Source: Tumebacillus sp. BK434 (GTDB lineage: Bacteria; Bacillota; Bacilli; Tumebacillales; Tumebacillaceae). Taken from it: a stretch of DNA of 64,000 nucleotides. This document shows positions 5,864 to 33,021 of this stretch, piece after piece (within the stretch, counting starts at the first letter, position 1; every line of letters begins with the position of its first letter). The stretch is from assembly GCF_004340785.1 (NCBI RefSeq), contig NZ_SLXS01000001.1, positions 992,001-1,056,000 of the forward strand. The letters are read 5' to 3'. Under the pieces are notes generated by a model. The model had not been told where the DNA came from. It saw only the letters and a program-made list of their open reading frames with translations, and ran no database searches. Both the position numbers and the translations under genes were made by a program.

Positions 5864-6427
5864 TTAGCCGCGCATCAGCGAAAACACTTCCGCACGCGCT
5901 TCGGAAGACTCTTGATAGATGCCGCGCACCGAGGTGGTGATCGTCGAAGCGCCCGGTTTCTTAACGCCGCGCATCGTCATGCACATATGTTCTGCTTCTA
6001 CGATGACCGCAACACCGTGCGGGTTGAGCTTGTTGACCAATGTGTCGGCCACTGTCGAGGTGATGCGCTCTTGCAGCTGCGGCTGGCGGGCGACCGTCTC
6101 GACAACTCGCGCGAGCTTGGACAGGCCGGTCACTTGGCCGTTGCGGGGGATGTACGCCACGTGAGCCTTGCCGTAGAACGGCACGAGGTGGTGTTCGCAC
6201 ATCGAGAAGAACGGGATGTCCTTGACGATGACGACTTCTTCGTGCATTTCATTGAAGATCGCCGAAAGCTCATCTTCCGGATTCTTGCCAAGACCTTCAA
6301 ACACTTCCGCATACATCTTCGCCACGCGCTTCGGCGTGTCGAGCAGACCTTCGCGATTCGGGTCTTCCCCGACCGCTTCCAACAACATGCGAACTGCCAC
6401 TTGTGCTTTATCGAAATCAAATGCCAT
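5864..6427 (-). CDS. folE: GTP cyclohydrolase I
   Basis: A 187-residue enzyme converting GTP to dihydroneopterin triphosphate, the first step of folate synthesis. The zinc site is visible in [20 protein letters not shown], and the conserved QLQERIT and the CMTMRGV cysteine segment are present. Length is normal for the bacterial enzyme. The start at 6427 has GGAGG nine bases upstream. A longer frame to 6538 runs through AT-rich leader sequence and is rejected. The leader at about 6462-6485 contains a direct repeat of GTTGATAG that could be an operator. No other folate gene is adjacent. Confidence 0.95.
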
Positions 6428-6608: not shown

Positions 6609-9074
6609 TCAGGTACCGCTGCCCGGTGTGTTCGGCTGCGTGGTGTCGCCACCGCCGGTGCCGCCTCCGGACTCACCGCTCCCCGTGCCTGGCTGGGCCG
6701 GCGGAGTCGTGCCGCCCGGCTGGGTCGGCGTATCATTGTTGCCCGGCGGTACGGTCGGGGTGGTCCCCGGTGTGCCAGGCTGCGTCGGCGTGGTCGTGCC
6801 GCCGCCGCTTGGACCACCCGGAGTACCCGGCCCGGTCGGATTCGTCGGCTCCTGCGGATTCGTCGGCTCCTGTCCCGGCACGGTCAGCTGAGCAAAGTTG
6901 GAGTCGGACAGCTTCTCACTGCCTTTCATCACGACGACCGAATAGAGGTACGTCTTGCCTGGCTGGATGGTGGCGTCCGTATAGCCCGGCTTGGTCAGCT
7001 CGCCGATTCCGCCGGAGTTGGACACCGTGCCGTTCGGATTCTTTTCGGCTCGGAACAGGAAGTATTTCGCATCTTTCACATCGACCGGCGACCAAGTCAG
7101 CACCGCCTTGTTGCCTTGCAGCTTGGCAGTCAGGTCGCTGATGATCGCCTTCGCTTTGTCATCTTTCTCTTCTTCGACCGGCTTGTTGGAGACGTTCAGG
7201 TCAAAGCGCGGTGCCGGACGGCCCTGCAGGCCTTGCGACATGACTTTCGAGAACAGCGCGGACGGAATCTCCGAGCCTTGGCTGGCGAGATAATGCTGTT
7301 CGTCCGACTGGTCGAAGCCCATCCACGTCACCATCACATAACCCGGCGTGTACCCGGTGAACCAAGCGTCGCGGTTGCCGCCCGTCTGGCCCATCTCGGT
7401 CGTGCCGGTCTTGCCGGCGACGTCGCGGCCGGAGATGCGGGCGCTGGTGCCGGTGCCCTGCTCGACCGCGTCTTTCAGCATGCGGGTGATCGTCTTTGCC
7501 GTATCCGGCTTGATCGCCTGATGCGTTTTCACGTCGATCGAAGCGAGCGTTTCGCCCTCCGCGTTCTGAATCTCGCGGATCGCAAACGGCTCGGTGCGCA
7601 CGCCGTTGTTGGCAAACGCAGTGTAAGCGCCGGCCAGGTCAAGCGGCGTGACATCGACGTCGCCAAGCGCCACGCCGAGGCGCTGAGAATCCTCTTGCTT
7701 GAGCGGAATCCCAAATTTCTTCGTTGCGTAGTCATACCCCACATCTACGCCCATGTCATTGAGCAGAGAGACGGCCGGGATGTTCAGCGACCAGATCACC
7801 GCTTCGTTCATCGACACTTTGTCCTTCGGCCACAACTTCCAGTTGTTCGGCTTGTAGCCGCCCGGGAACTCGGTGCCCGCCTTGTTGTTCAGGATGGTCG
7901 ACGGCGAATATTTGCCGGTGTCGATCGCCGGACCGTAGACCATGATCGGCTTGAACGACGAGCCCGGACGGACTTTCGCCATCGAAGCGCGGTTGAGCAC
8001 CGCCTGCGGAGTGTGCTCCAAATCCGGCTTGTCGCGTCCGCCGACCAGCGCCAGCACGCCGCCCGTCTCCGGATCGACGATGACAGACGCCGACTGCGCC
8101 CACGTGCCGTCAGCCGCGTTGTTCGGGAAGTTGTTCGGGTCTTTGTACGCGTTTTGCAAGGTGTCCTGCAGTTTCGGATCGAGGTTGGTGTACACCTTCA
8201 CCCCGCCGCGCAGCACCTGCTCCGCGTCGATGCCCAGCTTCTTCGATGCCTCTTCCAGCACGTAGTCGAGGTAGTACGGATATTTGACTTCCTGGTCCAT
8301 GCCTTTGATGTCATCGCCCGGTTTTTCGGACAGCTGCAGCGGTTCGGTGATCGCTGCGTCATACTTGTCTTGGTTGATGTATCCGTACTTGAGCATCTGG
8401 TCGAGCACGATGTTGCGGCGCTCGATCGACAGCTCCGGGTTGGCCCGCGGGTTGTACGCGCTCGGCGCGTTCGGAAGCCCGGCCAGGAGGGCGCTTTCGG
8501 CCAGGGTCAGCTCTTCCATGCGGTCGCCTTTGTCAAAATACACTTCTGCTGCGTATTTCACACCGGTCACATTGCCTGCGAACGTGATGCGGTTAAAGTA
8601 CATTTCCAAGATGTCGTCTTTGGAATAATTGCGTTCGATCTGCGCCGCCATCGAGATCTCTTTGACTTTGCGGGTAAATGTCTTCTCATGCGAAAGATAG
8701 ACGTTTTTGGCAAGCTGCTGCGTGATCGTCGAGCCGCCTTCCGCTTTCGATCCGGTGATGATGTCGCGGTAGACCGCGCGTCCGATCGCCCGGAAGTCGA
8801 CGCCGTTGTGATTTTTAAAGCGATTGTCCTCGACAGCGACGATCGCATTCTGCAGATCTTTCGGTATCTCGCTTAGCTTTGCCGCTTCACCGGCCACCGA
8901 TTGGAACTGCATGATCTCATTTCCGTCCCGGTCATAGATGTACGAGGTCTTGTACTCGATCTCCAGCTTCGATTTATCAAATGTCGGGAGCGCAATGCTG
9001 CATCCGATCAGAATCACAGCAATGCCGGTTACCAAAAAGGCAATCAAGATGCTCCGTAAGATTTTTTTCCCCAC
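6609..9074 (-). CDS. Class A penicillin-binding protein (PBP1a type)
   Basis: An 821-residue bifunctional murein synthase. It has a short cytoplasmic N-terminus, one membrane anchor at about residues 8-30, a GT51 glycosyltransferase domain (VEDNRFKNHNGVDF near 85-98) and a transpeptidase domain with SSFK (near 373), SLN and GKTGTT (near 555). After this come a fibronectin type III-like module at about 670-750 and a tail of some 65 residues rich in Pro, Thr and Gly. It polymerises lipid II and crosslinks peptidoglycan outside the membrane. The start is a GTG with GAGGTG seven bases upstream. It is monocistronic, with a terminator on either side. Confidence 0.95.
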   Translation of the reverse strand: MGKKILRSILIAFLVTGIAVILIGCSIALPTFDKSKLEIEYKTSYIYDRDGNEIMQFQSVAGEAAKLSEIPKDLQNAIVAVEDNRFKNHNGVDFRAIGRAVYRDIITGSKAEGGSTITQQLAKNVYLSHEKTFTRKVKEISMAAQIERNYSKDDILEMYFNRITFAGNVTGVKYAAEVYFDKGDRMEELTLAESALLAGLPNAPSAYNPRANPELSIERRNIVLDQMLKYGYINQDKYDAAITEPLQLSEKPGDDIKGMDQEVKYPYYLDYVLEEASKKLGIDAEQVLRGGVKVYTNLDPKLQDTLQNAYKDPNNFPNNAADGTWAQSASVIVDPETGGVLALVGGRDKPDLEHTPQAVLNRASMAKVRPGSSFKPIMVYGPAIDTGKYSPSTILNNKAGTEFPGGYKPNNWKLWPKDKVSMNEAVIWSLNIPAVSLLNDMGVDVGYDYATKKFGIPLKQEDSQRLGVALGDVDVTPLDLAGAYTAFANNGVRTEPFAIREIQNAEGETLASIDVKTHQAIKPDTAKTITRMLKDAVEQGTGTSARISGRDVAGKTGTTEMGQTGGNRDAWFTGYTPGYVMVTWMGFDQSDEQHYLASQGSEIPSALFSKVMSQGLQGRPAPRFDLNVSNKPVEEEKDDKAKAIISDLTAKLQGNKAVLTWSPVDVKDAKYFLFRAEKNPNGTVSNSGGIGELTKPGYTDATIQPGKTYLYSVVVMKGSEKLSDSNFAQLTVPGQEPTNPQEPTNPTGPGTPGGPSGGGTTTPTQPGTPGTTPTVPPGNNDTPTQPGGTTPPAQPGTGSGESGGGTGGGDTTQPNTPGSGT

Positions 9075-9202
9075 AACCTATCACCTCTTTTGCACATTCT
9101 ACTGCACGACCCGTCAACAGACAAACGGTAGATTCGTACGAGAATCGCGGTTTGCGCCTTCTTACTCCTATTCGCATGAGCAATCGTTTTTCTGTCCATA
9201 CA

Positions 9203-9247
9203 AAACCCCTTACCCTGATATAGACGGCTCACGCAGGGAAGGGGTTT
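9203..9247 (-). terminator. Terminator of the EamA-like gene
   Basis: An AAACCCCTTCCCTG / CAGGGTAAGGGGTTTT stem-loop on the minus strand. It lies between the transporter gene and the penicillin-binding protein gene. Confidence 0.75.
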
Positions 9248-9290
9248 CACTTTTCATCATAAATGTAATTTTCAGACATAAACCATGCGC

Positions 9291-9746
9291 TCAGGCGCTC
9301 AAGATATAGCCGCCAACCATGATCAGACTGCCGCCGATGACGATCTTGCCGAGGTCGGCGCCATGTTGCAGCTCGTTGAAGAAGATCAGGCCGAGCACGA
9401 CGGCGACCAGCGTATTGGCGTTGACCAACGGGATCAGTTGCGCCACGTTGGTCGCCGGATCGCGAAACGCGGAAGTCACGGTCAGCGTCCCGATCAGCCA
9501 GACCGCGCCGGCCGCCGCCCCGATGCTCAGGTAGGACCAGACGTGAGGTGCGCTCAGCAGTGTCGCACCTCCGCTACGCAGCCAAGCGAAGCCGGCAGCC
9601 GTGACGACCACGCCGAGCGCCAGGCCAAGCGCGATCACTTCCAGCGGGGCTTTGAGATATTTGTCCGAACTCAGGTATTTCAGCGGGATGCTGTACACCC
9701 CGTACGCAAACGCGGCGATGATGCCGGCGATGACCCATGATTTCAA
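9291..9746 (-). CDS. Small EamA/DMT-type membrane transporter
   Basis: A membrane protein of 151 residues made almost only of hydrophobic helices (about five), ending IIGGSLIMVGGYILSA. Its length and the helix pair with PLVNANTLVAVVLG fit a half-size drug/metabolite transporter of the EamA group, which usually works as a dimer. The substrate is unknown. The start is not certain: TTG at 9746 lies six bases after GAGGTGG, and a GTG at 9755 is also possible. The longer frame to 9965 overlaps the neighbouring gene and is not believed. Confidence 0.7.
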   Translation of the reverse strand: MKSWVIAGIIAAFAYGVYSIPLKYLSSDKYLKAPLEVIALGLALGVVVTAAGFAWLRSGGATLLSAPHVWSYLSIGAAAGAVWLIGTLTVTSAFRDPATNVAQLIPLVNANTLVAVVLGLIFFNELQHGADLGKIVIGGSLIMVGGYILSA

Positions 9747-9778
9747 GCGCTCCACCTCTGCTGTCCGATAGATTGGGG

Positions 9779-10375
9779 CTAGCCCTTGTCTATGTCTATG
9801 ACAGCCGGGGACGGGACTTTCCCATACCTGCGAATCAAATCTTCCACCGGAATCAAGACGCGCTTCAGCGGCAGGCTTTTGCCCTGATAGGTCATGCGCC
9901 GCCTGCCTTCCGGGTGGCAAAACAGCATCATCAGCCGCATGTACCAGGCCTTGAAGCGATACCATCGCGTGGGCGGCACATCCTGCACCGTGAAGCCGAG
10001 CGGTTCCACGCCGCGGTTGAGCAGGGTGACACCGATCAGCGCCTTGATCCGCTCACCGCGCGGATGTTTGCGCAGGAACTCGACCAGCTCCGGCAAGGAG
10101 CGCTGGGTTTCGCGCAGCACGATCAGCCCGCGCCGGTTGTCCGACTTGACGCCGTGCAGCATCTGTTGAAGACGAAGATTATAAAAGTGCAAGAATCCTA
10201 CCCAGTCGCCGCTGTGTATCTCTTTGCCGTCCGGAAGCCGGATATCAGGACCTGTATAATGCCGCACGCGAATGCGGAATATATTTTTGCCCTGACGGTC
10301 CTCATAATCGAACCGTCGGACCATCCTGTACAGGATGTCTCCCCATTTCCACAGGGTTAACTCGATTCGGTTCAT
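9779..10375 (-). CDS. YkoP-like domain protein
   Basis: A 198-residue soluble, basic protein with no signal peptide. It opens with LWKWGDILYRMVRRFDYED and continues IFRIRVRHYTGPDIRLPDG, then LHFYNLRLQQ. This pattern I associate with the YkoP-like domain that occurs alone in Bacillus and at the C-terminus of some polysaccharide deacetylases; I rely on memory of the family, not an alignment. Its biochemical role is not known. GGGGAGG lies five bases before the ATG. The gene is followed by the EamA-like gene, probably in one unit. Confidence 0.6.
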   Translation of the reverse strand: MNRIELTLWKWGDILYRMVRRFDYEDRQGKNIFRIRVRHYTGPDIRLPDGKEIHSGDWVGFLHFYNLRLQQMLHGVKSDNRRGLIVLRETQRSLPELVEFLRKHPRGERIKALIGVTLLNRGVEPLGFTVQDVPPTRWYRFKAWYMRLMMLFCHPEGRRRMTYQGKSLPLKRVLIPVEDLIRRYGKVPSPAVIDIDKG

Positions 10376-10466
10376 TTTGGCCTCCCCTTACAGAGCTTCT
10401 AAAGACTGCCTACCTAGTATGAGCGTCACATAACAAGTGTATGCCGGGAGGGTCACCACCGTGTAA

Positions 10467-10500
10467 AAACAAAAATCCTCCGGGAAAGGAGTCCCGGAGG
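10467..10500 (-). terminator. Terminator of the cold-shock gene
   Basis: A perfect CCTCCGGGA / TCCCGGAGG stem with a seven-base loop, followed by ATTTTTGTTTTT on the minus strand. Confidence 0.9.
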
Positions 10501-10517
10501 CTTTGTTCGCAGTTAGA

Positions 10518-10724
10518 TTACAGCTTGACTACGTTTGCTGCTTGCGGACCGCGAGCGCCATCGACGATGTCGAAGGAAACGGATTGACCTTCTTCGAGGG
10601 TTTTGAAGCCTTCGGTTTGGATCGCGGAGAAATGAACGAATACGTCTCCGCCGTCTTCGTGCTCGATGAAACCGTAACCTTTTTCAGCGTTGAACCATTT
10701 CACTTTACCTACTTTACCTTGCAT
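10518..10724 (-). CDS. Cold-shock protein, CspA family
   Basis: A 68-residue single cold-shock domain. RNP1 ([21 protein letters not shown]) and RNP2 motifs bind single-stranded RNA and DNA to keep mRNA unstructured. It has the normal length and acidic composition of the Bacillus CspB/CspD group. It is transcribed alone from the promoter at 10794-10822 through a leader of about 60 bases, and ends at a strong terminator. GGAGG lies six bases before the ATG. Which Csp paralogue it is cannot be said. Confidence 0.95.
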
Positions 10725-28783: not shown

Positions 28784-28813
28784 AAAGAGCACCTGCTCCA
28801 GGTGCTCTTTTTT
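28784..28813 (+). terminator. Terminator of the signal peptidase gene
   Basis: AGAGCACCTG / CAGGTGCTCT with a three-base loop, then a T run. Confidence 0.85.
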
Positions 28814-28882: not shown

Positions 28883-30691
28883 TTGCAACACCCAGCTGAA
28901 AACTACCGCTTCAAAGTCAACCTGCAGGGCATGATCGAGCTGTTGTCGGGACACCTGTACAGCTCGCCCCGCGTCTACATTCGCGAACTGCTGCAAAACG
29001 GCACCGATGCGATCCGGGCGCGCGCCAAGCTGCAGCCTGATTTTGCAGGCGAACTTACCTTAGAAGTGTTCGCTTCCGGGGACGGCTCCCGCACGCTGAT
29101 CTTTGAAGACAACGGCGTGGGGCTGACCGAAGCGGAAGTGCATCAATTTTTGGCGATCATCGGCGAGTCCTCCAAGCGCGCCGAAGAGATGCGCAACACC
29201 GATTTTATCGGGCGCTTCGGCATCGGCCTGCTCTCCTGCTTTGTCGTCAGCGACGAGATCGTCCTGATCACCCGCTCCGTGCAAAGCGACAAGGCGGTCG
29301 AGTGGCGCGGCAAGCCGGACGGCACCTATACGATCCGCCTGTTGGAAGGCGATTTCACGCCTGGTACGCGCATCTACCTGCGCAGCAAGCTCGGCTATGA
29401 AGAATATTTTGAGCTGGCTACCGTCCAAGACCTCTGCCGGCACTACGGCGCCCTGCTCCCCTACCCGGTCAACGTCTCGGACGGCAGCCGCAATAAGACG
29501 ATCAATGAAGGCAAGCCGCCGTGGCTGTTGCCGAACTGGGAGCAGACCGTCTCCCGCGATGCGATGCTCGACTACGGACGCCGCTTTTTCGGCGAGAACT
29601 TTATCGACTTCATCCCGCTTTCTTCCGAAGTCGGCGACGTGCAGGGCATCGCCTTTGTTCTGCCGCACCGCGCGTCAATCGCAGCGAAGACGAACCATCA
29701 GGTCTACCTGAAACAGATGCTTCTGTCGGAAAATGTGGAGAACATTCTGCCGGAATGGGCCTTTTTTGTCAAATGCATCATCAACAGCAATGACCTGTTG
29801 CCGACGGCATCGCGCGAAGAATTTTATGAAGACGGCAAGCTGGCCACCGTGCGCGAAGCGCTCGGCAATTGCCTGCGCGACTATCTGATCTACCTCGCCG
29901 AACACGACCTGCCTCGCCTGCACAAGCTGATCGCGATCCACTTCCTGTCGATCAAAGCGCTGGCCGTGCAGGATGACCAGCTCTATCGCCTGTTCATCAA
30001 GTGGCTGCCGTTCGAAACGTCGCAGGGCCGCCTGACGATGGAGCAGATCTTAGAGCACAACGCGGTGATTCGCTTTACCCCTTCGCTCGATGAGTTTCGT
30101 CAGATCTCCCGCGTGTCGGCCGCGCAGTCGATGTGCGTGATCAACGGCGGCTATGTTTTCGATGCGGAGCTGATCGAGCGCCTGACCGACTTTTTCCCGG
30201 AATATACGGTGGAGCGCATCGATCCGATCGACATCACCGAGTCATTCGAAGACCTGACTCTGGCCGAGCAGCAGCTCGTCTTCCAGTTCCTGCGCACGGC
30301 GGACGCCGCCCTGCAGTCGTTCGGCTGCAAAGCGGAGATCAAAAAATTCTTGCCGCTCGAGCTTCCCGCGCTCTATTCGACCAGCGAAGAAGCGACGTTC
30401 CTGCGCTCGGTGGAGCGGACGCAGGAGGAAGCCAACCCGCTGTTCGCTTCCGTGCTCGGGTCGCTCGGCGCCGCGTTTGGCGTGCCGGCCGCGCACGGGC
30501 AGCTCTGCTTTAACTTCCGCAACCCGGTCATCGCCAAGCTGGTGCAGTCGGCCGATCCGGAGCTGCAGCGCATGGCGGTGGAGATGATCTACGTGCAGGC
30601 GCTTTTGATGGGACACCATCCGCTCAACCACCGCGAGATGAAGCTGCTCAACAACGGCCTGTTCAACCTGATCGAACTGGGCATGAGATAG
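28883..30691 (+). CDS. Divergent Hsp90 (HtpG-like) chaperone
   Basis: A 602-residue protein of the GHKL ATPase superfamily with Hsp90 layout. The nucleotide motifs are YIRELLQNGTDAI (near residue 32; HtpG has ELISNASDA), FEDNGVGLT (near 75) and IGRFGIGLLSCFVV (near 111). A middle domain follows with the family's TASREEFYED (near 310), then a C-terminal domain of about 170 residues. The substitutions place it in a side branch of Hsp90 rather than canonical HtpG. It starts with TTG at 28883. The partner gene follows after 10 bases. Its client proteins are unknown. Confidence 0.88.
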   Translation: MQHPAENYRFKVNLQGMIELLSGHLYSSPRVYIRELLQNGTDAIRARAKLQPDFAGELTLEVFASGDGSRTLIFEDNGVGLTEAEVHQFLAIIGESSKRAEEMRNTDFIGRFGIGLLSCFVVSDEIVLITRSVQSDKAVEWRGKPDGTYTIRLLEGDFTPGTRIYLRSKLGYEEYFELATVQDLCRHYGALLPYPVNVSDGSRNKTINEGKPPWLLPNWEQTVSRDAMLDYGRRFFGENFIDFIPLSSEVGDVQGIAFVLPHRASIAAKTNHQVYLKQMLLSENVENILPEWAFFVKCIINSNDLLPTASREEFYEDGKLATVREALGNCLRDYLIYLAEHDLPRLHKLIAIHFLSIKALAVQDDQLYRLFIKWLPFETSQGRLTMEQILEHNAVIRFTPSLDEFRQISRVSAAQSMCVINGGYVFDAELIERLTDFFPEYTVERIDPIDITESFEDLTLAEQQLVFQFLRTADAALQSFGCKAEIKKFLPLELPALYSTSEEATFLRSVERTQEEANPLFASVLGSLGAAFGVPAAHGQLCFNFRNPVIAKLVQSADPELQRMAVEMIYVQALLMGHHPLNHREMKLLNNGLFNLIELGMR

Positions 30692-30701
30692 GAGGGGGAC
30701 G

Positions 30702-31715
30702 ATGAACTATCAGGAACAGCTGTACATGCTGGAACATCAGGCCGATCTGCTGCCCGACGGCGAGGCCAAGACCGCGCTGCTCGAACAGGCGATCCATCTG
30801 GCCGACCGCCACAACGAGCTGATCGACTCCTTCGAACTGCGTGAAAAGCTGCTCAGCGCCGCGCTTGGCGCAGGCGATCCGCGGCGCATGCTCGTCGCCT
30901 TCTCCTGGTGCCTGACCCAAATGGACAAACACCCCGAGACGTTCGATCCGACTCGCATGCTCTGGCAATACAAATGGGTCGTCGGCCACATCGGCACGTT
31001 CCCGCAGATCTCCCGCGCGCAGATCGACGCGATGATGGATGACATGAAGTCGCGCTACGAGGCGCAAGGGCTCTCGCTGCGGCCGTACTACCGCCAGCTG
31101 CACGCCCACGCGATGTTCGCCGGTGAGCAGGAGCAGGCCGAGGTCCACTACCGCCAGTGGCTGTCCGCAGCGGTCGATGAGTTCTGTGACTGCCTCGCCT
31201 GCGAGCGGGCACATCAGGTCGAGTATATGGTCTGGCTCGGTGAAGACGACAAGGCGCTGGCGCTGGCCGAGCCGATTTTAAACGGACAGCTCGCCTGCTC
31301 GACCGTGCCGCACAACACGTTGCATGACCTGCTCGACACGATGGTCCGCCTCGGCCGGATCGACGAGGCGGAGGAACTGCACAAACGCGGCTATCCGAAG
31401 ATCGAGCACGAGCCGTCGTTTGTGCACGGCTTTGCCAACCACATCCGCTTCCTCACCCTGACCGACCCGGACCGCGCGTTGACATTGTTCCACAAGCACT
31501 TGCGCCAAGCAGAGACCACGACCGACCAGCGCAACCAGTTCCGCTTTTTCCTCGCCGGCTGGTTCCTGTTCGAACGCCTGCACCGCTCCGGGCACGAGCA
31601 TGAAGAACTGGGCTGGCTGTCAGCAAAAACGCGCGAGCTCGCCGCCGCGTTTGACGCGCGCAACGGCAATGCGCACTACGCCGCGTGGATTGAAAAGACG
31701 CTGGCTCAGCTATAA
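30702..31715 (+). CDS. Helical-repeat (TPR-like) partner of the Hsp90-like protein
   Basis: A 337-residue all-helical protein with degenerate tetratricopeptide-type repeats, for example DKALALAEPILNG and RIDEAEELHKRGYPK. It has no signal peptide, membrane segment or other domain. AGGAGGGGG lies just before the ATG, 10 bases after the Hsp90 stop, so the two are cotranscribed and probably work together. Eukaryotic Hsp90 co-chaperones are often TPR proteins, but this Hsp90 lacks the MEEVD tail they bind, so any contact must be different. Function is inferred from position only. Confidence 0.7.
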   Translation: MNYQEQLYMLEHQADLLPDGEAKTALLEQAIHLADRHNELIDSFELREKLLSAALGAGDPRRMLVAFSWCLTQMDKHPETFDPTRMLWQYKWVVGHIGTFPQISRAQIDAMMDDMKSRYEAQGLSLRPYYRQLHAHAMFAGEQEQAEVHYRQWLSAAVDEFCDCLACERAHQVEYMVWLGEDDKALALAEPILNGQLACSTVPHNTLHDLLDTMVRLGRIDEAEELHKRGYPKIEHEPSFVHGFANHIRFLTLTDPDRALTLFHKHLRQAETTTDQRNQFRFFLAGWFLFERLHRSGHEHEELGWLSAKTRELAAAFDARNGNAHYAAWIEKTLAQL

Positions 31716-31723
31716 ATAGCTGC

Positions 31724-31760
31724 AAAAAGACCCTCGACATTTACCTGTCGAGGGTCTTTT
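31724..31760. terminator. Bidirectional terminator
   Basis: AAAGACCCTCGACA / TGTCGAGGGTCTTT with a six-base loop. The right arm encodes the last codons of the convergent XRE-TPR gene. Confidence 0.85.
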
Positions 31761-33021
31761 CGGCGATCAATTCGTCCGCCCGCTCCGCCCAGAGGCTGGC
31801 CAGGCGGAAGTCATCCTGGCGCTTGTACAGATCGGTCAGCAGCTGGTAGACGGCCAGCAGCTCTTCCTTGGTCCCCTGCAACAATCCTTGCGCCTGCTCC
31901 GCCGCAGCCAACGCTTCGCCCAGGCGCTCCTGTTCGCGATACAGCCCGGCCAGAGCCAGCGCGATCCGCCCCCGCTCGATCCGGCAGGCACAGGTCACAG
32001 CAAGCCCCGCCTGCAGCAGTTGCACAGCCTGCTCACGCTCGCCCATCTGCCGGCGCACCTGTCCGAGCTCGCCATACGCCTGCACCAGCAGTTCGCCGCC
32101 AGGCATGCTTTCCGCCTCTTGCACGCATTCAGACAGCAGGGACAATGCTTCTCCGTAGCACCCCGTCTTGGCCAGCAAACGCCCGCGGGCGAGCCGCGCC
32201 TGCAAGGCGGGGCGACGGTCTTTCAGATTGTGCAGCAGCTCTTCCGCGGCCGCGTAACAGTCTTCCGCTTCTCTATGCTGCTCCAGCCGCTCCAGCACCA
32301 GCCCGCTCCCGTACATCACGTCGGCGCGCCGCCTCGTCTGCTCCGGCGCGCTCCGCAGCAACTGCTCGGCGCGCCGATACACCTGCAGCGCCTCCTGCGC
32401 CAGGCCCAGCGACTGCATACCGCCTGCGAGGGACAGGCAGATATCGAGCGGCAGCAGCAGATCGTCCCCCGCTGCCAGATGCCGCTCCCATTCCCGCAGC
32501 GCCCGCTTCCACTCGACCACCGCCAGCTCCAGCTTGCCCAGACTGTGCGCCACTTCGCCAAGCCGCACATAGATCCGGGTTGCCAGCAGGGCGTCTTCGT
32601 CGCAGATCGCCAGGCGCAGCGCCTTCTCGTACAGCTTGCGCGCCTCTTCATACGCCTCCAGCTGCTGGCGGCAATAGGCGGTCTGATAGGTCAATTGCAG
32701 CTCCGGCCAGGCCGGATGCGGTTCCTGCAGGCACTCCTGTAACAGCGGCAGCGCTTCAGCATAATGGCCCAGCGACAAAAACGCCTGCGCCTGCTTGTAG
32801 CAGGCCAGACGTTCCTGATCTTCATGTTTCGCCGGCATCAGCTGCTGCGGCGTCACGCGCAGCTTAGCGGCGATGCGCTTGAGCAGATCGGAGGACGGCT
32901 GAATGCGGTCCGTCTCGATCTGCGAGATCATGCTTTTCGTGACCAGCCCGTCCGCCAATTCGCGCTGCGACAGGCCGGCCGTCTTGCGCAGTGCGCGGAT
33001 CTTCCCGCCGAGCGTGGACAC
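31741..33021 (-). CDS. XRE-type regulator with TPR repeats
   Basis: A 426-residue protein with an N-terminal helix-turn-helix at about residues 6-62 (GLSQRELADGLVTKSMISQIETDRI) and then about ten tetratricopeptide repeats to the end. This is the build of RRNPP-type or Rgg-like regulators that read small peptides, but I find no secreted-peptide gene beside it. GTG at 33021 begins two bases after the TAA of the upstream gene. No ribosome site is visible, so translation may depend on reinitiation. It differs clearly from the XRE-TPR gene at 46135. Confidence 0.85.
   Translation of the reverse strand: MSTLGGKIRALRKTAGLSQRELADGLVTKSMISQIETDRIQPSSDLLKRIAAKLRVTPQQLMPAKHEDQERLACYKQAQAFLSLGHYAEALPLLQECLQEPHPAWPELQLTYQTAYCRQQLEAYEEARKLYEKALRLAICDEDALLATRIYVRLGEVAHSLGKLELAVVEWKRALREWERHLAAGDDLLLPLDICLSLAGGMQSLGLAQEALQVYRRAEQLLRSAPEQTRRRADVMYGSGLVLERLEQHREAEDCYAAAEELLHNLKDRRPALQARLARGRLLAKTGCYGEALSLLSECVQEAESMPGGELLVQAYGELGQVRRQMGEREQAVQLLQAGLAVTCACRIERGRIALALAGLYREQERLGEALAAAEQAQGLLQGTKEELLAVYQLLTDLYKRQDDFRLASLWAERADELIAEKTLDR

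Follow-up and report, generated by a model that had tools for sequence, protein, structure and literature searches.

Eukaryotic Hsp90 works with TPR co-chaperones such as Hop, FKBP51/52, PP5 and XAP2. For eubacteria, the relevant passage of a 2021 paper reports no apparent orthologs of Hop, Aha1 or p23 (PMC8082187). In the sections of Chen et al. (2006) that deal with the HTPG proteins, three groups are distinguished, two copies are recorded in S. coelicolor and in B. fragilis, and group C is proposed to be basal; these sections on group C do not describe a partner gene, and the word TPR occurs nowhere in the text (PMC1525184). The locus studied here lies in a 64,000-nucleotide stretch of the genome of Tumebacillus sp. 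BK434, termed the window, and carries a group C Hsp90 gene followed by a gene for a predicted TPR superhelix. The likeness to the eukaryotic arrangement is that of an Hsp90 with a presumed TPR-superhelix partner, here predicted; unlike the eukaryotic systems, the Hsp90 has no MEEVD tail, the TPR family is a different, cysteine-bearing one, and the presumed association is operon-linked. The Hsp90 branch is itself already known, group C having been published in 2006. No description of the pair or of the partner was found in searches of open-licence PMC papers, and the pair is not described in the pertinent passages of PMC3534079, PMC6901971, PMC10393277, PMC11687934 and PMC7688965.

The locus and its Hsp90

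The first gene (positions 28883..30691 of the window, forward strand; TTG start) encodes a 602-aa group C Hsp90, as judged by NCBIfam NF010683, tree and fold. The partner gene (30702..31715, forward strand; ATG start), assigned by AlphaFold2 model, fold matches and linkage, encodes 337 aa and begins after 10 bases. Its Shine-Dalgarno sequence, AGGAGG (30690..30695, forward strand), overlaps the Hsp90 stop codon, so translational coupling of the two genes is plausible. Upstream, an intrinsic terminator located by scan and sequence (28784..28810, forward strand) closes the signal peptidase I gene and sets it apart from the pair. Downstream, fold computation gave a stem-loop terminator at 31725..31760 with a 15-bp stem (dG -29.5, z -6.8, 0/200 shuffles). 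This is the terminator that the first-pass annotation had described as shared by the two genes; it is real, and it is also common to a converging gene on the reverse strand (31741-33021), which encodes an XRE-type HTH and multi-TPR regulator of RRNPP-like architecture. Nothing indicates that this regulator is a member of the pair. A scan of the whole window with what we take to be the CIRCE consensus, allowing up to three mismatches, gave no such heat-shock operator, and a scan before the pair gave no sigma-70 promoter. The Tumebacillus genome holds a single copy of the partner and also encodes a canonical HtpG, on another contig.

Pfam, NCBIfam and the fold prediction all identify the first gene product as an Hsp90, as the first-pass annotation had proposed; it is 94% identical to the T. 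avium Hsp90. It scored 757.8 bits against NF010683 (HSP90 family protein, PRK14083; cut-off 455) and 173.4 bits against the canonical HtpG model NF003555, below the cut-off of 371. A phylogeny of the branch, which that annotation had suggested, resolved a separate clade: of the 50 rows in the tree, the 35 from group C lay on one side of a branch with 100/100 support, and 11 canonical HtpG rows and four more distant Hsp90-like rows lay on the other, long branches making the positions of the Listeria locus (L109) and of L104, L134 and L110 unsure. By score and tree the window Hsp90 is a member of the NF010683 family. The branch, whose function was not known to the first-pass annotation, corresponds to the HTPG group C that Chen et al. 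described in 2006 (PMC1525184), an equation which we infer from size, taxa and presence beside a second copy. The predicted model (pLDDT 84.7) contains the N, middle and C-terminal domains and matched TRAP1 (7kcl_B; Z 30.4, rmsd 5.7, 535 aligned) over residues 11-602.

The motif ELLQNGTDA, which is present as RELLQNGTDA, had initially been read as a sign of altered ATPase motifs. However, residues E35, N39, D76, G78/G80, G110/G113/G115 and R311, presumably the catalytic Glu, the Mg-binding Asn, the Asp, the Gly motifs and the R-loop Arg, are identical to those of the canonical HtpG of the same genome. The exceptions among the group C rows are one D76 to E exchange and one gap at R311, in a shortened protein. 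Position 38 is Q in 35/35 group C rows and S in 11/11 canonical rows, and on this alignment ELLQN (Q38; LLQN for LISN) is a signature of the branch and not damage. With these catalytic residues intact, the reading as an inactive or pseudo-Hsp90 was rejected. In fold and ATPase residues the protein is like canonical HtpG (NF003555), whereas its score falls below the cut-off of that family.

The absence of a MEEVD-type tail, another claim of the first-pass annotation, was borne out: the window protein ends in LIELGMR, and the tails in 33 rows are short, variable and unconserved. A group C-specific cysteine, Cys298, is present in 31/35 rows. A Paenibacillaceae Hsp90 that has no adjacent partner (L122, 5428-7224) carries Ser at this position. 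For the HtpG of S. hygroscopicus, which may be a group C protein, normal nucleotide binding and absent geldanamycin binding are described in the relevant part of PMC3603443.

The partner protein and its cysteines

The best library match of the partner was a sub-threshold one to TPR_14 of Pfam, which was matched in 7/33 members of the family with E values up to 0.1, and no curated family for it was found in NCBIfam. In the Pfam comparison of the 33 members, the core matched no enzymatic domain. An AlphaFold2 model made with the 33 aligned relatives as input (pLDDT 96.7, pTM 0.93) comprises 17 helices and matches TPR superhelices: a chain O, which we take to be APC5 (Z 23.6, rmsd 4.8, 320 aligned), MalT domain III (Z 22.6, rmsd 5.1, 318 aligned) and NprR (Z 19.5, rmsd 4.1, 301 aligned). 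Among solved structures no member of this family was met; the matches were confined to short repeats in designed helical proteins, PPR/TPR designs among them. The predicted model clearly describes an uncharacterised TPR superhelix, and the TPR-like nature first ascribed to the gene from its letters was upheld by weak Pfam matches together with a clear predicted fold. The fold is alike in MalT domain III, APC5 and NprR/Rap at ~10% identity; the partner differs in having neither an HTH nor a nucleotide domain, and fold alone shows no function.

Three cysteines are invariant in 33/33 aligned partners. C164 and C167 (codons at 31191..31202, forward strand), which belong to a DCxxCE motif, stand at the start of helix 165-179, and C199 (31296..31298, forward strand) lies in the loop between helices 182-193 and 204-216. 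Judging by the order of the helices in the model, all three are expected at one end of adjacent repeats. We read the site that they would form as, most likely, structural zinc or a thiol switch. No fourth ligand for a metal stands out; H204 is unconserved. The alignment also revealed a conserved C-terminal motif, (F)DxRNG(N), at codons 318-322 (31653..31667, forward strand).

The cysteine triad (CxxC plus C) was found in 83/83 complete linked domains, identical partner sequences being counted once and truncated pieces that lack the cysteine columns being left out (the second frame of L009, L057 at a contig end and the frameshifted L071); it is present too in a tandem copy whose locus is cut short (L114). 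Among seven unlinked partners, the triad was found in three (L124, L127, L131), and all three cysteines were lost in the others (L125, L126, L128, L132). The Fisher value, which ignores kinship, is 1.3e-5.

The partner usually ends after the core, and in some lineages further parts are added. In Laceyella these are repeats with library matches of the ExoR/MotX type, which we read as Sel1-like; a tandem duplicate was considered for this protein and ruled out, the second half being Sel1-like. In Streptomyces a further TPR region is added, and in one Ruminococcus locus (L104) a DUF4026 domain stands behind the core. The Ruminococcus partners (L104, 7737-10046; L105, 6339-8633) are ~765 aa long; the Pfam comparison covered the L104 protein, whose match may give DUF4026, a domain of unknown function, a context. 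Such lineage-specific tails fit best with an adaptor that carries target parts, and they would also suit a client whose functions differ by lineage.

Linkage of the two genes

Species-representative genomes were scanned with Hsp90 peptides alone, which yielded 71 loci from Bacillota, Myxococcota, Planctomycetota, Verrucomicrobiota and Bacteroidota, together with one titled Comamonas. The partner, recognised with an HMM built iteratively from the partners themselves, is the next gene downstream in 69/71 loci, mostly overlapping the Hsp90 gene or tens of bases from it; many of these loci are close kin (Paenibacillus, Myxococcus, Corallococcus), and the 69 are not independent events. The frameshifted L105 was counted from the end of its tblastn match at 6334 and the partner start at 6339, and a script requiring intact ORFs gave 68/71. 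In one of the two exceptions (L044) the contig stops two bases past the Hsp90 gene, and no partner was found in the rest of that draft genome (G352). In the other, a Planctomycetales MAG (L101, G351), no partner adjoins the Hsp90, and three of the seven unlinked partners mentioned above are found elsewhere in the genome. In the Streptomyces plasmid loci (L106-L108) a longer protein with the partner at its N-terminus stands in the same place, and in Listeria (L109) two tandem partners occupy this place, as they do in P. algorifonticola and some other Paenibacillaceae. In the Listeria locus (7815-10625) the tandem partners are followed by an SMI1/KNR4 (SUKH) gene. The pair titled Comamonas sp. 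KCTC 72670 looks myxobacterial by rank among matches, and the title may be a mislabel.

The first-pass annotation had treated the two genes as one unit, a proposal that hung on their linkage in relatives, and this linkage was found in denser samples as well. In 148 genomes, labelled Paenibacillaceae from their match to named loci, the Hsp90 was present in 53, the partner in 53 and both in 52; the two genes were adjacent in 52/52, with the partner downstream on the same strand at 8-50 bases by profile coordinates. The genome with the partner only, by profile (G381), carries an adjacent shortened Hsp90 of 531 aa, and another (G391) has kept the Hsp90 with no partner. Among 299 Bacillota genomes, the same four contain the partner (profile E 1e-8) and a group C Hsp90 (NF010683, E 1e-100). 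The partner was also found in 24/26 genomes or records reached through the loci, the two without it being the genome of L044 and a P. aeruginosa record. Unlike group C, the 24 canonical HtpG genes compared (that of the own genome, G002 and L010-L031) have no TPR gene nearby: the partner was found beside 0/24 in flanks of ~0.8-1.5 kb. A third conserved neighbour does not recur across phyla, other common families being met mainly within genera or one family.

The distances among Hsp90s and among partners were correlated over 33 pairs (Mantel r 0.858, none of 2000 permutations as high), and nearest neighbours agreed in 21/33. The correlation of these sequence distances shows joint inheritance, not contact, and is expected because co-inheritance alone suffices. 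The partner diverges faster, with a median distance of 1.66 compared with 1.03 for Hsp90.

A more distant arrangement of the same order was met in gammaproteobacteria, where a set of loci from Pseudomonas (L111), Xanthomonas (L129) and Salmonella (L133) has a distant Hsp90-like gene followed by a gene for a TPR-type protein of 764-774 aa. These Hsp90s scored 292.9 and 285.8 bits against NF010683 (cut-off 455) and form a separate branch of the tree. In E. coli, 149/5426 genomes matched; in each of the 149 the genes stand together and the match spans at least 80% of the two-gene query. Twenty phage records matched, two of them over at least 80% of the query; ordinary chromosomal genes surround the match in at least one, that of Salmonella. 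A CxxC is present in the three distant TPR partners that have an Hsp90; a Nonomuraea homologue is without it, and no Hsp90 was found in its 14-kb locus. Comparison of the 764-aa protein with the window partner by hhalign gave a probability of 2.65 with one sequence and of 43.9 with four, the CxxC being unaligned in the latter. The P. aeruginosa partner (L111) is, by its position, presumably PA1069. In one data set, given in the relevant part of PMC4957987, PA1069 is down at high temperature (log2 -1.98) and htpG is up, so a plain heat-shock role of the distant pair is not supported. On a Pseudanabaena plasmid (L110, 4228-9807), a TIR-domain gene is divergent from genes for an 877-aa Hsp90-like ATPase, a small protein and a TPR protein, and this locus is possibly a conflict system.

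Roles proposed for the pair

One interpretation of these data, which we regard as rather probable, is that the pair consists of a chaperone and a co-chaperone dedicated to it, which would serve as an adaptor and bear a metal or thiol site. The first gene product would act as an ATP-driven group C Hsp90 dimer, and the TPR superhelix of the partner would dock on a folded surface of it, there being no MEEVD-type tail to clamp. The partner would bring in clients or time them, its three-cysteine site, as structural zinc or thiol switch, would set the shape of the adaptor, and the lineage modules behind it (Sel1-like, DUF4026, more TPRs) would be client- or target-binding parts. The Hsp90 dimer, the binding, control of the ATPase, the metal and the client role are all what we infer. 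The partner may also act alone, because unlinked partners exist.

Alternatively, the partner could be a client with a private chaperone: a TPR scaffold whose folding or metal loading depends on this Hsp90, the cellular work being done by the scaffold itself. A dedicated client would yield most of the same linkage, and the strict linkage, the chaperone-first order, the faster divergence of the partner and its lineage-dependent tail all fit; the cysteine-less unlinked partners could be copies that no longer need Hsp90. Yet the core partner has no enzymatic domain and is helical repeat throughout, as is typical of scaffolds and adaptors, and two tandem partners stand beside one Hsp90 in Listeria, P. 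algorifonticola and some other Paenibacillaceae, so that we consider a client somewhat unlikely.

It seems improbable that the two are stress genes under common regulation and no more, with products that act independently of each other. Unlinked partners and one partnerless Hsp90 would agree with it, but order and adjacency are kept over several phyla with no other neighbour in common, the phyletic distributions of Hsp90 and partner are nearly identical, and the partner occurs without a group C Hsp90 in 0/299 Bacillota genomes. A mobile defence or conflict module would account for the patchy occurrence in Bacillota (4/299), for the TIR gene adjoining the distant Pseudanabaena Hsp90-like gene and for the weak match of the Hsp90 N-domain to PADLOC TmtA ATPase domains (best E 2.5e-10, 36.8 bits, ~95-118 residues). 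Against this, PADLOC gave no match for the partner, the branching of the tree mostly agrees with the phyla, and ordinary genes stand nearby, for instance that of signal peptidase I in the window and fri in Listeria; a defence role is very hard to credit.

For the chaperone with its adaptor, the linkage suggests, at the level of genes, that these bacteria possess a protein dedicated to partnering Hsp90, as has until now been known chiefly in eukaryotes. A bolder form, which is speculative and rather unlikely as a whole, would be a widespread bacterial Hsp90-TPR machine of at least six phyla, docking without MEEVD and controlled through three cysteines, at a metal or thiol site that is possibly completed in trans by Cys298 of Hsp90; with the gammaproteobacterial pairs included, the pairing would be older than the eukaryotic one or would have arisen apart from it. 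A simple two-gene pair with one adaptor, in culturable Paenibacillus, Myxococcus, Streptomyces and Tumebacillus, would be testable with two purified proteins, and point mutants could be made cleanly in the cysteine triad. The variety of partner tails suggests that the choice of client could be deduced from the genome.
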